In this document: in pieces, positions 7,490 through 25,334 of the stretch
How positions within the stretch are numbered: position 1 is the first letter of the stretch
Layout: each line of letters opens with the position of its first letter
From: a virus
Virus record (IMG/VR): IMGVR_UViG_3300042922_001447
Span: 1 to 28,552 of that record
Strand: one strand, 5' to 3'
DNA: 28,552 nucleotides
Program-made: the position numbers and the translations under genes
Notes under the pieces: generated by a model
The model's input: only the letters and a program-made list of their open reading frames with translations
Databases searched by the model: none
What the model was told of the DNA's origin: nothing

Positions 7490-7817
7490 AATTAACCTCA
7501 GTTCCCACGCTGCCGAACTCATAGGTTTCTGCGGTGACGTAAAGCCTGGTGAGACTTTCTTCGGTGATCACCACCGTGCCAGGGATCAGACGTTCATCGC
7601 TTTCCACCAGAAGGGAAAGCTGTGTCAGCACATCACCGCGCATCGTTGGACTACGTTCGCCTATCAGGCGGGTGGTAACACCACTTTCCAGAATGCTGTG
7701 AATGATGTCCTGGGCGATGCTGTCACGGTTGTTACAACGTTGCGGCTCGTTGCCGCTGTCCAGCGTGAAATCGCCGTCTGTGATCAGCAGATCGATATAA
7801 AGTGGCTCAGTACTCAT
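7482..7817 (-). CDS. Baseplate wedge protein, gpW/gp25-like
   Basis: A 111-residue protein in the place of P2 gpW (about 115 residues). It has the expected pattern of a gp25-like sheath initiator: an N-terminal strand pair, a central helix with GERSPTMRGD (an SxxxxxxGx loop) and C-terminal beta strands. Sequence likeness to gpW itself is weak; it looks more like the DUF2590 version found in HP1-type phages. It overlaps the tape measure stop (ATGA) upstream and gene J downstream, so the three are translationally coupled. The identity as sheath initiator is inference from position and size. Confidence 0.75.
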   Translation of the reverse strand: MSTEPLYIDLLITDGDFTLDSGNEPQRCNNRDSIAQDIIHSILESGVTTRLIGERSPTMRGDVLTQLSLLVESDERLIPGTVVITEESLTRLYVTAETYEFGSVGTEVNYD

Positions 7818-9928
7818 CCGGCGTTAAGCTCCTGCCATTCGGCCAACTGGGCCGGGGTGATTCCGTTCGGGGCGTTGATATAGGTGTCGCCCCATGTTTT
7901 ACGGCTATCCACAACGGTTTTGCTGTCAGATTTAACCTGGCTCATCAGGCCCCCGCGTGGGATATCCGCATTGATTTTGTTGCCCGCCAGCAAAGACGGC
8001 GCGTTCAGCGCTGGCGGACCAGCAGCACCATCAGAAATAACAGTGGGTGCCGGTATCGCCGACCCGGCAGACGGTGAAACGGTCTTGAGATCGATATTGA
8101 CGCCGGGGATTTTGTTAAGCTTCTCGGCGATCCAGTTATAGGTAGACGCAAAGGTGTTTTTTAGGACATCAAAAAGCTTACGGAATACACCGCCGATGGT
8201 ATCCGCGAACCCTTCAAAGGCGGCAAGCGGTGACAGACCAGAGAAGAATTCAACCACGGCGGCCCAGCCGTCAGTGATGGATTGCCAGACGCTGGCAAAC
8301 ACCTGGCCGACCTGCGCGGCTACACTCATCACCCATGCAAAGGCCTCGGTGTTCATCACTGCCGCTTTCAGTTCTTCCCAGTGGTTGACGACATACCAGA
8401 CACCCAGCCCCAGCAATGCCAGGGCGGCAATAATCAGGGTGATCGGGCTGGTCAGCAGTTGCATGGCCGCACCGGCAAACATGGTTGCCACGCCATACAC
8501 ACGCATGGCAACGGCTCCGGCTTTTAACACGACATTCCAGGCAACCAGCGCGACACGGCAAACACCGGTCCACAGGGCTAACAGCTTCGACTGGATCCAC
8601 AGTGCAGCCAGACCAATGCGGGTTGTCAGCAGCGACGGACGCAACAAGTTAAGCGTCCATACCAGGGCTTTCCAGGCTCCGCCCAGCACTTTTGCGATTG
8701 CACTCAGGCCCACCATAGTGAATCCAAAAATGCCCATCACGATATTCGTTGCCGCACCGGCCAGCCCGAAGGACAGCACGCCCAGGGTGATATAACCCAG
8801 CCAGCGGGCAATGTTGGGGAACATTTCCAGCCAGCGGGCGAATTTCGCCCCTACATCGGCAACGCGGTTCATCATCGGTGTAAGGATAGGGATCAGCGTA
8901 TTGCCCAGCGCGACACGCATCGCGTAAAACGTCGCGACGATCCGTTCCCACGGCTTCGCCATACGTTCGGCCATTTCCTGAGCGCGCTTCATGCCATCAT
9001 TGCGCCCCAGTTCTGTGATATTGCGGTTTAAAATTGCCTGCTGGCCGTACAACTTTTTGATGACATCAGCACCGCCACCGAAAGCGGCGTCCAGCGCCTG
9101 CTGGGCTTTGACGTTCCCTTCAATGCTGGCTCCGTATTTATCTTGCAGCTTTTGCAGGATGTCGCCCATTGGCAGCATTTTGCCGGTTGCATCAACGAAG
9201 CTCATTCCCAGTTTTTCAGCCGCAGCCGGTGCGCTTCGCAAAAACTGCTCGTAGATGCCGCTTGACTCAGTGCCCAGGGTGCGCGAGAGGGTGCCCAGCA
9301 CCGCGAACTGTTCATCCATGCTAACGCCGAAGTCAGCCCCGGCATTTTTGGTGCCCTCGATAAGCTCCTGCATGGTCTGCATTTTCACGCCGAAGTTTTG
9401 CACCATGTAGGCCGTTTTTCCGGCCAGTTCTTCGGCAAACCTGACATGACCCAGGCTGGACAGTTCCGAATTGAAACGGGAAGCCATCGCGCCGATATAT
9501 TCGCCCGCTTCCTCGCCTGTGGCTTTTACGCCTGCCGCCAGAGTGTTGGCCGCCACTGTCACACGTGGCAGATCGGCATCAGAAAGACCAGCCATTGCGC
9601 CTTTCATTGCATAACTGGAATTCACCACATCAACCGCGCTTTTACCGTAGCGAATGCTGAATTTAAGCGCTTCGCTGGACAGCCTTTTGAGGGTTTCTTC
9701 GGCCACGCCTTTGGCACCCACTTCCGAAAGTGCTGCATTCATTTCATACGCAGGGCCAACCACCCCCGCGATGGACTGGGCAACACCCCAGACCGCCGCC
9801 GCACCGATACCGATTTTTGTAAAAGACGCCTGCGATTTTTCGGCAAAGCCAGTCAGCGAAGACTGGGCCGTTTTTAATGGCCGTGTCAGCTTGTCAATCA
9901 GGCTCAGCGTAAAATCCAGGTGACTCAT
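7814..9928 (-). CDS. Tail tape measure protein (gpT-like)
   Basis: A 704-residue protein with the phage tape measure signature in the N-terminal half (ALSEVGAKGVAEETL; SYAMKGAMAG; MASRFNSELSSLG). Strongly hydrophobic segments run from about 375 to 520, including LITLIIAALALLGLGVWYVV-type stretches, which are thought to cross the inner membrane during DNA injection. A Gly/Pro/Ala-rich C-terminal tail follows. Length fits a short P2/HP1-class contractile tail. The GGAAG ribosome site sits in the end of the chaperone extension, and the ATG lies just 2 nt past the extension's TGA. Confidence 0.95.
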   Translation of the reverse strand: MSHLDFTLSLIDKLTRPLKTAQSSLTGFAEKSQASFTKIGIGAAAVWGVAQSIAGVVGPAYEMNAALSEVGAKGVAEETLKRLSSEALKFSIRYGKSAVDVVNSSYAMKGAMAGLSDADLPRVTVAANTLAAGVKATGEEAGEYIGAMASRFNSELSSLGHVRFAEELAGKTAYMVQNFGVKMQTMQELIEGTKNAGADFGVSMDEQFAVLGTLSRTLGTESSGIYEQFLRSAPAAAEKLGMSFVDATGKMLPMGDILQKLQDKYGASIEGNVKAQQALDAAFGGGADVIKKLYGQQAILNRNITELGRNDGMKRAQEMAERMAKPWERIVATFYAMRVALGNTLIPILTPMMNRVADVGAKFARWLEMFPNIARWLGYITLGVLSFGLAGAATNIVMGIFGFTMVGLSAIAKVLGGAWKALVWTLNLLRPSLLTTRIGLAALWIQSKLLALWTGVCRVALVAWNVVLKAGAVAMRVYGVATMFAGAAMQLLTSPITLIIAALALLGLGVWYVVNHWEELKAAVMNTEAFAWVMSVAAQVGQVFASVWQSITDGWAAVVEFFSGLSPLAAFEGFADTIGGVFRKLFDVLKNTFASTYNWIAEKLNKIPGVNIDLKTVSPSAGSAIPAPTVISDGAAGPPALNAPSLLAGNKINADIPRGGLMSQVKSDSKTVVDSRKTWGDTYINAPNGITPAQLAEWQELNAG

Positions 9929-9929
9929 A

Positions 9930-10387
9930 TCATCTTCCGTTCAGTGCAATGGCGATGCCTTCCGCCGTTTTGTTCGCCCTGGTTCTGGCGAAATACTCAT
10001 CCAGCCAGATAGCGCGGGCGATGCTCTCTTCGTCGTCAGGTTCGTGCGGGAGGTAGTAGCGGCGAAGGGCAAGGTATTGCTCCAGTCCGTTCGTGCGAAT
10101 GGCCGCCACCCGCGCCGCTAGTTTTTTACTTCGATCTCAAGCTTCGGCGAATAAATTTCATTAACCTTTTCGACGATCTGCATTTCGCAGCCTGGGTAAT
10201 CTTCCATCAGCTTGTTTAAAGCGTCTTTTGACTCAGGATCAACAATGCGGCCCAGATAGGTAGCCATCGGTGCAACCTTGTTGGTCATGGTCATTTCGTT
10301 AATCAGGTTGTTATAAGCGGTTTTGTTCGGCTCAAAGCTCAGGCTGACACCGTCTACGGTCATGACAATTTTTTTTGACTTGCTCAT
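9930..10387 (-). CDS. Tail assembly chaperone, -1 frameshift fusion product (E+E'-like)
   Basis: Predicted 152-residue product. Ribosomes read the 89-codon gene to codon AAC (10123-10121), slip back one base on A AAA AAC, and continue for 63 codons to a TGA at 9932-9930. Reading the extension by hand gives an uninterrupted acidic/Arg-rich peptide beginning LAARVAAIR and ending AIALNGR, which contains a YLALRRYYLPHEPDDEE segment. The design matches P2 E/E+E' and lambda G/GT, in which the long form binds the tape measure and tail tube protein during assembly. The slip is inferred from the site and the open frame, not observed. Confidence 0.85.
10118..10387 (-). CDS. Tail assembly chaperone, short form (gpE-like)
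   Basis: An 89-residue zero-frame product that ends EVKN then TAG. It is small and mixed in charge, with the LSFEPNKTAYNNLINEMT segment typical of tail chaperones of P2/HP1 relatives. It should bind the tape measure protein and be absent from mature virions. AGGAAG lies 8 nt before the ATG, and the ATG overlaps the Rz1-like stop (ATGA). It is immediately upstream of the tape measure gene, the standard place. Confidence 0.88.
   Translation of the reverse strand: MSKSKKIVMTVDGVSLSFEPNKTAYNNLINEMTMTNKVAPMATYLGRIVDPESKDALNKLMEDYPGCEMQIVEKVNEIYSPKLEIEVKN
10121..10127 (-). promoter_or_regulatory. Programmed -1 ribosomal frameshift site (AAAAAAC)
   Basis: On the minus strand the codons are GTA AAA AAC TAG, so the heptamer A AAA AAC is exactly in the X XXY YYZ register, one codon before the zero-frame stop. 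AAA-AAC/AAG-type sites are among the most efficient in Escherichia coli (established knowledge). The sequence immediately downstream is very GC-rich (GCGGCGCGGGTGGCGG), which may form a stimulatory structure. Confidence 0.85.
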
Positions 10388-10680
10388 TTGGTTACTTCCT
10401 TTCGTTGTCGAATGATGCCCACCAGGGCGTTATGTCGCACGGCGCAATCGGCATACATCAGCCGATAGGCAGTTAATGCCGCGTCAAAGTCGTTACCGGT
10501 TGGCCCCGCCAGTCTGGGCAGGCTTACCGGGCAAAGGGTTAACTGGTTTTCCTGATAAGGTTCGCTCGGTGCTGGCCGCCATTTCGTTGAACAACCGGAC
10601 GTAATCATCAGAAGCACACACATTGTTAAAAACCGGTTTAATGGTTTCGGTACGGATAATCCGTTCGGTGTGGATCTCAT
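10384..10680 (-). CDS. Rz1-like outer-membrane spanin lipoprotein
   Basis: A 98-residue protein nested in the Rz gene in another frame; the two share 188 nt. It has a basic n-region, a hydrophobic stretch (FLTMCVLLMITSG) and a lipobox-like ITSGC with Cys at residue 30, followed by a Pro-containing region as expected of o-spanins. The start at 10680 has GGAG 10 nt upstream; an internal ATG at 10623 has no clear ribosome site, although it would give a shorter signal. It joins the i-spanin to fuse inner and outer membranes in the last lysis step. P2 LysC has the same nested arrangement. Confidence 0.82.
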   Translation of the reverse strand: MRSTPNGLSVPKPLNRFLTMCVLLMITSGCSTKWRPAPSEPYQENQLTLCPVSLPRLAGPTGNDFDAALTAYRLMYADCAVRHNALVGIIRQRKEVTK

Positions 10681-10873
10681 TGGCTTTTAACTCCGCGAGT
10701 TTCTTTTCCAGCGCTTCGCCTGACTGCCGCGTGACCTCCACGACAATCTGGCGGGTTTGCTCTGCCGATTCATTGGCGGCCAGCTTTAACTTTGCGTCAT
10801 GCCAGTCGTGTGCCTGCCATCCCGCTGACATGGCAGCAATCAGAATTAGCAGTAACCCCAGCAAGTTACGCAT
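10493..10873 (-). CDS. Rz-like inner-membrane spanin
   Basis: A 126-residue protein with an N-terminal membrane anchor (LLGLLLILIAAMSAG), then a charged helical periplasmic domain (about 25-95, with KLKLAANES... and EALEKKLAELKANEI heptads) and a Pro/Gly-rich end. This is the architecture of i-spanins (Rz, P2 LysB). It overlaps the endolysin stop by one base (TGATG) and contains the start of the Rz1-like gene. Together with the Rz1-like lipoprotein it disrupts the outer membrane after the peptidoglycan is cut. Confidence 0.85.
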   Translation of the reverse strand: MRNLLGLLLILIAAMSAGWQAHDWHDAKLKLAANESAEQTRQIVVEVTRQSGEALEKKLAELKANEIHTERIIRTETIKPVFNNVCASDDYVRLFNEMAASTERTLSGKPVNPLPGKPAQTGGANR

Positions 10874-11211
10874 CAGCGGACCCCGTTATGCTCAAGGGAA
10901 AAGTGATTGCCGTCTGGCCTGCTGAACCGGCCACCCCATGCCCCGCCAATGGACTCCCAGTATTCGCCCAGCGGGCGATAGGCTTCGCTGTCGGTCTGAT
11001 ATTCACCGTTGATAAACAGGTTGAAATCCACGGCCAGGCGCTGGGTGTGCAGGCTGTTTGCAATCCCACTGCCTTTTTTGGCATTCAGCGCGGCCTGCTC
11101 TGGCGTGCGGTACGCCTCGCCAAATGTCAGGCGGTAGCCTTTTTCCTCCGCGAAGTGGATCAGATTTGCGATCATCACGGTGAAAAGCTGTTGTTTCTCA
11201 CTCAGTTTCAT
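10873..11211 (-). CDS. Endolysin, M15-family peptidase
   Basis: A 112-residue peptidase. H55 and D62 lie in SLHTQRLAVDFN and H103 in DGNHFSLEH, the two zinc-binding motifs (SxHxxxxAxD and HxxxxH-like) of M15B/C peptidases such as L-alanyl-D-glutamate endolysins. It has no signal peptide, so it needs the holin upstream to reach the cell wall. It differs from the P2 K lysozyme, which cleaves sugars. GGGGAAG precedes the ATG, and the start overlaps the holin end by 14 nt. Confidence 0.92.
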   Translation of the reverse strand: MKLSEKQQLFTVMIANLIHFAEEKGYRLTFGEAYRTPEQAALNAKKGSGIANSLHTQRLAVDFNLFINGEYQTDSEAYRPLGEYWESIGGAWGGRFSRPDGNHFSLEHNGVR

Positions 11212-11509
11212 GACGTTTGCTTCCCCATCGTTTAATCCAGTATTCCGCGAGGCGCTTTAAACCGGCCTCGATAAAGGCGCTCCCCAGGATGCCCAGGGCG
11301 CAGGCAATGCCCACGACAACCAGTTCCGGCATATCCGGGAATTTCAGCAGCGGGATTGCGGCAAGCGGGGCCACCGCAGCCCCCAGAATCATCCGCCCGA
11401 CCAGCAGGCGGGTTGTGATCTGCTCACTGCTGACCATCAGTTGCCCCAGACCAATCACGGCCCCAATCAGCAGCAACTTTGCCAGTAGTGACGTTTCTCC
11501 ATTTGGCAT
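11198..11509 (-). CDS. Holin (three membrane segments, class I-like)
   Basis: A 103-residue protein with hydrophobic segments at about 8-26, 35-55 and 63-84, a short N-terminus and a basic C-terminal tail (KRLAEYWIKRWGSKRH). This is the class I holin pattern. It precedes the endolysin and spanins, and AAAGG lies before the ATG. It should trigger lysis timing by opening the inner membrane. It has no sequence likeness to P2 gpY that I can see, and the exact holin family is not assigned. Confidence 0.85.
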   Translation of the reverse strand: MPNGETSLLAKLLLIGAVIGLGQLMVSSEQITTRLLVGRMILGAAVAPLAAIPLLKFPDMPELVVVGIACALGILGSAFIEAGLKRLAEYWIKRWGSKRHETE

Positions 11510-24058: not shown

Positions 24059-24282
24059 TTCTTACTTTCCACGTTGTACTTTTCGTGGGTCATAAGTGAC
24101 CAAACCTTGCCGCCGTCTTTACTCAACAAGCGCCAGCGGCAACCCAGACGGATCACCAGGTAATGATGTGGCACGATGCGGGAATAATTTTTCCGGCCTT
24201 TCGCGTACTGGCTTAATTCAGCCGTTGCACGCTTGCTTACGCACAGCGGTGCGGCGCATGAAATCTGCAAACGGGTAGTCAC
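24055..24282 (-). CDS. Small basic early protein of P2-like phages, function unknown
   Basis: A 75-residue basic protein starting with GTG at 24282. The chosen start has GGAGG 7 nt upstream and overlaps the Dam stop (GTGA). The frame runs 40 codons further upstream, but that part is coded inside the dam gene and lacks a ribosome site. The RIVPHHYLVIRLGCRWRLLSKDGG segment looks like a compact DNA- or protein-binding unit. I recall similar short proteins before A in P2-like prophages, but no function. It sits between Dam and A with 4-nt overlaps on both sides. Confidence 0.7.
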   Translation of the reverse strand: MTTRLQISCAAPLCVSKRATAELSQYAKGRKNYSRIVPHHYLVIRLGCRWRLLSKDGGKVWSLMTHEKYNVESKK

Positions 24283-25265
24283 TGGAAAGCCTCCACACCA
24301 TTCGCGGCAGCCGTTGAGATCATCTCTTTGTATGTAGCTTCCCCCATTACTGGGCCGCAATCCGGGCAGCAACCACCACCGGCACGCCCGCAGCCGTCGC
24401 ACACTTTGAGGACGCCGATCACCTCGCTGGCGACTCCCCTGGTAATGCTGTTCGCACTAACCGAACGGTTAACGCTGATTTCCTGGAACTTGAATTTGTT
24501 GTAAATCTCGCGAGTGGTGGGGGTATCGCTGTTTGACAGGATCACCGGCGAACCAGTCAGACGATTGGCTGCCAGCAAGGCCGCAGCTAACTGACGGTGT
24601 TGTTTCTCACCAAAGGGGGCGGTGTGATACTGGGTAAAATTGGCGGTTTCGCTAACAGGCAGGTACGGCGGGTCACAGTAGATCACGGCATCACTGCCAA
24701 TCATGATTTTTAATGTGCTCTGGTAGTCGCAACAAACGAAAATGGCTTTTGTGTCGTTGGCCTTTTCAGAGAACAAACGGATCTGTTCTTCCGGGAAGTA
24801 AGGCGGGTTTTTGTGCTGACCAAAGGGAACGTTATATCCGCCCTGGCGGTTGTAGCGCACAACGCCGTTATAACCGTGGCGATTCAGATAAAGGAATTGC
24901 GCTGCGCGAAGAATCTTGCCCGTGTCCGGGCCGTTTTCGAAAACTTCACGCGAAGTAAGATTATCTTTGGCACGGGCGTTGAAATCACCACGGACCCACA
25001 GATAACCGTCTTTATTTCCATACACTTTAAACAGAGGGCGAGCAGCGTCGATTACTGCATCCGGCCAGCGCGTTATCTGGCGGTAAAGGTTGATGAGATC
25101 TGGATTGATATCACCCAGGATATAGCGGCGATATTCAGTATTGAGGAAAACAGAAGCACCGCCGACGAACGGTTCAACAAGGCAATCAGCCTTAGGCAGT
25201 ACCGGCAGCAGATCGGGAATTACGCGACTTTTACCACCAGGCCATTTTACAAGCGAACGTATCAT
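24279..25265 (-). CDS. dam: DNA adenine methyltransferase (Dam) with cysteine-rich C-terminus
   Basis: A 328-residue methylase. KWPGGKS (7-13), EPFVGGASVF (31-40, AdoMet-binding FxGxG-like) and DPPY (198-201, catalytic) are the D12/Dam class motifs; it methylates adenine, probably in GATC. From 289 on, C-x2-C (289, 292), CC (299, 300) and C303 form a likely zinc knuckle absent from usual Dam proteins (about 270 residues). The ATG at 25265 has GGAG 8 nt upstream; a TTG seven codons earlier is less likely. It may protect phage DNA from restriction or control A/early gene expression. It is part of the early operon, following a 69-nt gap after the DUF5347-like gene. Confidence 0.92.
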   Translation of the reverse strand: MIRSLVKWPGGKSRVIPDLLPVLPKADCLVEPFVGGASVFLNTEYRRYILGDINPDLINLYRQITRWPDAVIDAARPLFKVYGNKDGYLWVRGDFNARAKDNLTSREVFENGPDTGKILRAAQFLYLNRHGYNGVVRYNRQGGYNVPFGQHKNPPYFPEEQIRLFSEKANDTKAIFVCCDYQSTLKIMIGSDAVIYCDPPYLPVSETANFTQYHTAPFGEKQHRQLAAALLAANRLTGSPVILSNSDTPTTREIYNKFKFQEISVNRSVSANSITRGVASEVIGVLKVCDGCGRAGGGCCPDCGPVMGEATYKEMISTAAANGVEAFQ

Positions 25266-25334
25266 TTTACTTTCTCCAGGGTGCAAGAAGCCCGACGCGT
25301 TAGCGCCTGTTTCTTTTTTGTGGTCAGTTATTTG

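Follow-up and report, generated by a model that had tools for sequence, protein, structure and literature searches.

A programmed −1 frameshift very probably extends the tail assembly chaperone of an HP1-like phage to 152 residues

Frameshifted tail assembly chaperones are well known in lambda and in many other phages, and in lambda the two chaperone products are made at a ratio near 30:1 (PMC5009743). In phage P2, E and E+E' are annotated as a joined −1 frameshift in NC_001895, where the slip site reads T_TTT_TTG; a passage of PMC3931495 citing Christie et al. 2002 states that P2-related phages conserve this E/E' arrangement. The divergence between tail modules of the HP1 type and those of the P2 type is ancient (PMC10612066). 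Beyond phage tails, the insertion sequence IS1 uses the heptamer A_AAA_AAC at about 2% slippage (PMC12428005); this is the same heptamer as at the locus described here, and as InsA/InsAB' is a transposase, an unrelated protein, the likeness extends only to the recoding signal.

The locus lies in a window of 28,552 nt (the whole stretch of DNA analysed), which is an entire IMG/VR record and represents a temperate Peduoviridae phage (the P2 family) of the HP1-like branch. Among phage records the closest is Salmonella phage SI7 (genus Irrigatiovirus), which shares 82.1% DNA identity with a 25-kb query across 78% of its length. In minus-strand order, the late genes run from the tail sheath (PF10758, phrog_907) through an HP1 Orf24-type tail protein (PF10772), a holin, an M15-type endolysin, Rz and an Rz1-like protein to the chaperone and the tape measure protein; the stop of the Rz1-like gene overlaps the chaperone ATG. 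The tail operon encloses the lysis genes (holin, endolysin, Rz and Rz1; 10384-11509), with the tail tube on one side and the chaperone on the other.

The chaperone ORF, read from 10387 to 10118, closes with the codons GTA AAA AAC TAG, and the −1 frame that overlaps its end stays open up to a TGA at 9932-9930, a single nucleotide away from the tape-measure ATG at 9928 (Table 1). The predicted chaperone-extension fusion is 152 aa long, and peptides within the predicted extension include TNGLEQYLALR, YYLPHEPDDEESIAR and AIWLDEYFAR. An earlier note on this DNA had given the same coordinates and the same length, both of which hold when the ORF, the phase of the heptamer and the 63-codon −1 frame are re-read from the window. 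The best explanation of this layout is, very probably and as judged from sequence, a programmed −1 frameshift: most ribosomes would stop at the TAG and release the 89-aa chaperone, and a minority would shift back by one base at A_AAA_AAC and continue for 63 codons to give a 152-aa form that, according to the models described below, would gain a helical C-terminal domain (DUF6890).

Table 1. Features at the chaperone/tape-measure junction, with window coordinates
Feature	Coordinates	Strand	Basis and remarks
Rz1-like outer-membrane spanin gene	10384..10680	-	phrog_2425; weakly Rz-like spanin phrog_456; position; overlaps Rz gene 10493-10873
Zero-frame tail assembly chaperone gene, 89 codons / 89 aa	10118..10387	-	PF10963 Phage_TAC_10, E=1.1e-31; AlphaFold2 model
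Slippery heptamer A_AAA_AAC	10121..10127	-	Read directly; right tandem-slip phase; abuts stop
Zero-frame stop TAG	10118..10120	-	Directly 3' of heptamer; adjacency kept though stop identity varies
Predicted −1 frame extension, 63 codons + TGA (DUF6890, phrog_7050)	9930..10121	-	PF21830, E=1.2e-20; coding selection; helical hairpin model
Candidate downstream RNA structure, may aid slippage	10043..10117	-	MFE -29 kcal/mol, z -1.4 vs dinucleotide shuffles
Tape measure protein gene	7814..9928	-	PF10145, phrog_28, TIGR01760; starts 1 nt past extension stop

Considered alone, the window makes a weak case that does not go beyond chance, because AAAAAAC occurs 10 times against 8.1 expected and the −1 frame is open for at least 63 codons in 12.7% of composition-matched shuffles. 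Three other in-phase copies of AAAAAAC lie inside genes of the window, and codon usage gives a chance of about 2e-4 for an in-phase A_AAA_AAC at the very end of a gene. The proportion of shuffles with an equally long open frame would fit a frame opened by chance or left by a decayed gene, but it describes this sequence alone, and the same arrangement recurs, with purifying selection in the −1 frame, in 39 lineages that share less than 85% DNA identity at the junction; chance or decay is thus an extremely improbable account. The comparative sequence data place the frameshift arrangement far beyond chance. Elsewhere in the chaperone gene, an A8 run in codons 4-7 (TCA AAA AAA ATT; 10369-10376) may be a second slippage spot.

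Relatives were drawn from phage records and IMG/VR, some scans relying on the chaperone alone and one on the extension alone. These searches gathered 293 loci, 290 of which hold both chaperone and extension; the extension lies in the −1 frame in 289 of the 290 and is fused in frame in one. The earlier note had staked its proposal on a −1 frame free of stops in relatives, and an early stop is found in only 1 of 191 unique loci, an HP1/HP2-type locus of the Haemophilus group (L291, 1446-1577) whose extension breaks off at 44 codons, which suggests a decayed copy or a sequencing error. The HP1/K139-type phages that the note had singled out for comparison bear it out as well, since HP1, HP2, K139, F108, ESSI-2, phiO18P and SI7 have the same two parts, the same −1 arrangement and the same slip site as the window. 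An additional search of 395 species genomes of one bacterial order, made with a 44-position DUF6890 profile only, returned 29 new loci, which make 32 together with 3 from the earlier searches; all 32 carry the extension in −1, and the heptamer abuts the stop in 31.

Across 193 unique junctions, A_AAA_AAC or A_AAA_AAA is placed against the zero-frame stop in 192, the last eight bases before that stop being TAAAAAAC in 165, TAAAAAAA in 27 and another sequence in one, and the stop itself varies (TAA 89, TGA 62, TAG 42). The sole exception is a distant relative, L094, which has A_AAA_AAG at the homologous codons and its stop 36 nt (12 codons) downstream of the heptamer. In the single locus with an in-frame fusion, a Vibrio-group relative (L269), an A8 at about 1449-1456 replaces A7 and joins chaperone and extension in one frame; this is either an error of sequencing or a form that is naturally fused at all times. 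Readthrough of the stop codon was also considered and rejected, as further zero-frame stops follow within 58 codons in 181 of the 191 loci.

The slip sites are uninterrupted runs of six or seven A, and together with the A8 of L269 this raises the question as to whether the frame is changed by RNA polymerase slipping on the run rather than by the ribosome. For transcription to slip efficiently in bacteria, a run of six A is short. Slipping polymerases would favor longer A runs, whereas no such growth is seen: the run stays in the phase of the heptamer and most lineages close it with a C, and L094 keeps A_AAA_AAG, the best ribosomal heptamer in Escherichia coli (PMC5009743), so that a transcriptional origin of the frame change is highly improbable.

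Selection on both sides of the junction can be read from the 39 lineages. The AAA is invariant, and the codon that precedes it, for V, L or I, has A as its third base throughout. Measured against codons simulated from the usage of the gene itself, the three slip codons show the strongest shortage of synonymous variation among the last 60 codons of the chaperone, a ranking that weighs more than the z values themselves (about -15, -11 and -20, against -7 for the next codon) because the simulation treats lineages as independent. The extension has a pN/pS of 0.32 in the −1 frame, compared with 1.16 and 1.70 in the other two frames, and this ratio is already 0.35 at codons 3-18, before the point where annotated starts usually lie. 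In RefSeq and several phage records, the extension is given as an independent small gene, a DUF6890 family protein, which would be translated from an internal start or by reinitiation after the chaperone stop. However, no start codon is conserved within its first 20 codons (no position has one in more than 8 of the 39 lineages), and the absence of a conserved start together with the early −1 selection points to translation running through the junction. An independent gene would also leave the fixed heptamer unexplained, and we regard it as very unlikely.

The earlier note had called A_AAA_AAC a strong site, which is true of eukaryotic ribosomes, but E. coli ribosomes slip on it with low efficiency (PMC4066793, PMC5009743). 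Such a low slip rate would suit a chaperone with a minor extended form; our guess for the rate is a few percent. RNA just past the slip site is more stable than codon shuffles across the 39 lineages, with a mean z of -1.37 (s.e. 0.19), the largest effect of all segments tested; the window's own RNA at this place has a small excess (z about -0.4), and the tape-measure start region, as a ribosome-binding site should, has a z of +1.05. In close relatives, the clade of the window, the predicted stem is unsupported by covariation, with two-sided change in 1 of 21 pairs. Upstream of the slip site, Shine-Dalgarno-like pairing shows no excess over background (-3.08 vs -2.88 kcal/mol), and a search of Rfam gave no match; the window has no clear stimulator.

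The product of the zero frame is a tail chaperone by family and, as modelled, by fold. Chaperone and extension were folded as separate chains, the latter from an alignment of relatives' loci and the window. The AlphaFold2 model of the chaperone (pLDDT 92.8) consists of two strands and four helices; its best match among solved structures is 3fgx, an uncharacterised Bacillus protein (Z 10.5), and its match to the tail assembly chaperone of HK97 (gp13, 2ob9) is moderate (Z 5.6). Against viral models, many of its matches are annotated as tail assembly chaperones, none of them with an E value below 0.001. The extension scores 73.5 bits against DUF6890 (PF21830), whose curated cut-off is 23.6, and also matches phrog_7050, a family listed without function. 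It is modelled as a helical hairpin (pLDDT 85), for which a fold search returned chance-level matches only; a sequence search of solved structures gave nothing useful.

In layout, the locus resembles the G/GT-type systems of lambda and HK97: a small gene of chaperone family and fold sits directly upstream of the tape measure in the tail operon, a conserved in-phase heptamer lies near its end, and the extension is under coding selection in the −1 frame. As in lambda gpG/gpGT and in HK97 gp13-type chaperones, the −1 extended chaperone would be the minor form, and 2ob9 is the moderate fold match to the common part noted above. If the likeness to lambda gpG/gpGT extends to function, the part shared by both forms would bind the tape measure protein, and recruitment of tail subunits would fall to the rarer extension. 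The extension differs from that of lambda, and the tail of the window phage is contractile, unlike the flexible tails of lambda and HK97. The lambda slip site, G_GGA_AAG, is likewise unlike that of the window.

The likeness to P2 E/E' proposed in the earlier note stands as far as the logic goes, in that P2 gpE/gpE+E' also pairs a small gene just before the tape measure with a −1 extension near the gene end, but kinship between the two is unproven. The P2 slip site lies 21 nt before the stop, whereas that of the window is placed against it and has no T run of the T6G or T7G type. Neither the P2 E nor the GpE Pfam family matches the chaperone or extension of the window up to E 1, and hhalign against P2 E/E' gives a probability below 1%, a weak test as it used single P2 sequences; the P2 relatives retrieved by a scan were nearly identical copies.

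The placing of both stops invites a more elaborate reading. In 22 of the 39 lineages, the extension stop reaches at most 4 nt into the tape-measure gene or lies at most 1 nt ahead of its ATG (spacing -4 to +1 nt). A design of a slippery run set on a stop could be imagined for HP1-type phages, where a weak heptamer would be kept against the stop so that delayed termination helps to set the slip rate, and where slipped ribosomes would end at the tape-measure start and couple synthesis of the fusion to that of the tape measure. The adjacency of heptamer and stop (192 of 193) and the spacing between extension stop and ATG allow such a stop-assisted or coupled design, but do not show it, and we hold it to be unlikely. 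The spacing is a hint that translation of the fusion and of the tape measure may be coupled.

Frameshifting of this kind is already known in phages; in the present case it very probably accounts for a conserved protein segment that databases enter as a gene of its own, with unknown function. A programmed −1 frameshift would give DUF6890/PF21830 and phrog_7050 a role as the C-terminal domain that frameshifting adds to a tail chaperone, and would mean that the anciently diverged contractile tail of HP1-type phages retains the G/GT strategy, with a different slip site. It also exposes a systematic gap in annotation that includes E. coli prophages in RefSeq, one copy of which is annotated as a 'putative phage tail assembly chaperone' next to a separate 'DUF6890 family protein'. 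HP1-like phage records leave the extension unannotated or give it as a separate protein, and a joined gene is found in none of the eleven records examined; Xu et al. 2004 or Christie et al. 2002 may already list HP1 or K139. A literature search found no mention of PF10963 or DUF6890. The finding has real value for annotation and would not greatly surprise a specialist. In these junctions, nature further provides a collection of weak heptamers next to stop codons, suited to the study of how bacteria tune frameshifting.

Two features of the record lie apart from the tail operon. The ends of the window (1 and 28552) coincide exactly with the stop codons of the terminal genes, which indicates that the provirus was probably trimmed at gene edges, with loss of its att sites. 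Beside the replication gene A, the window carries a gene for a D12-class adenine DNA methyltransferase (24279-25286; PF02086, E=1.9e-59).
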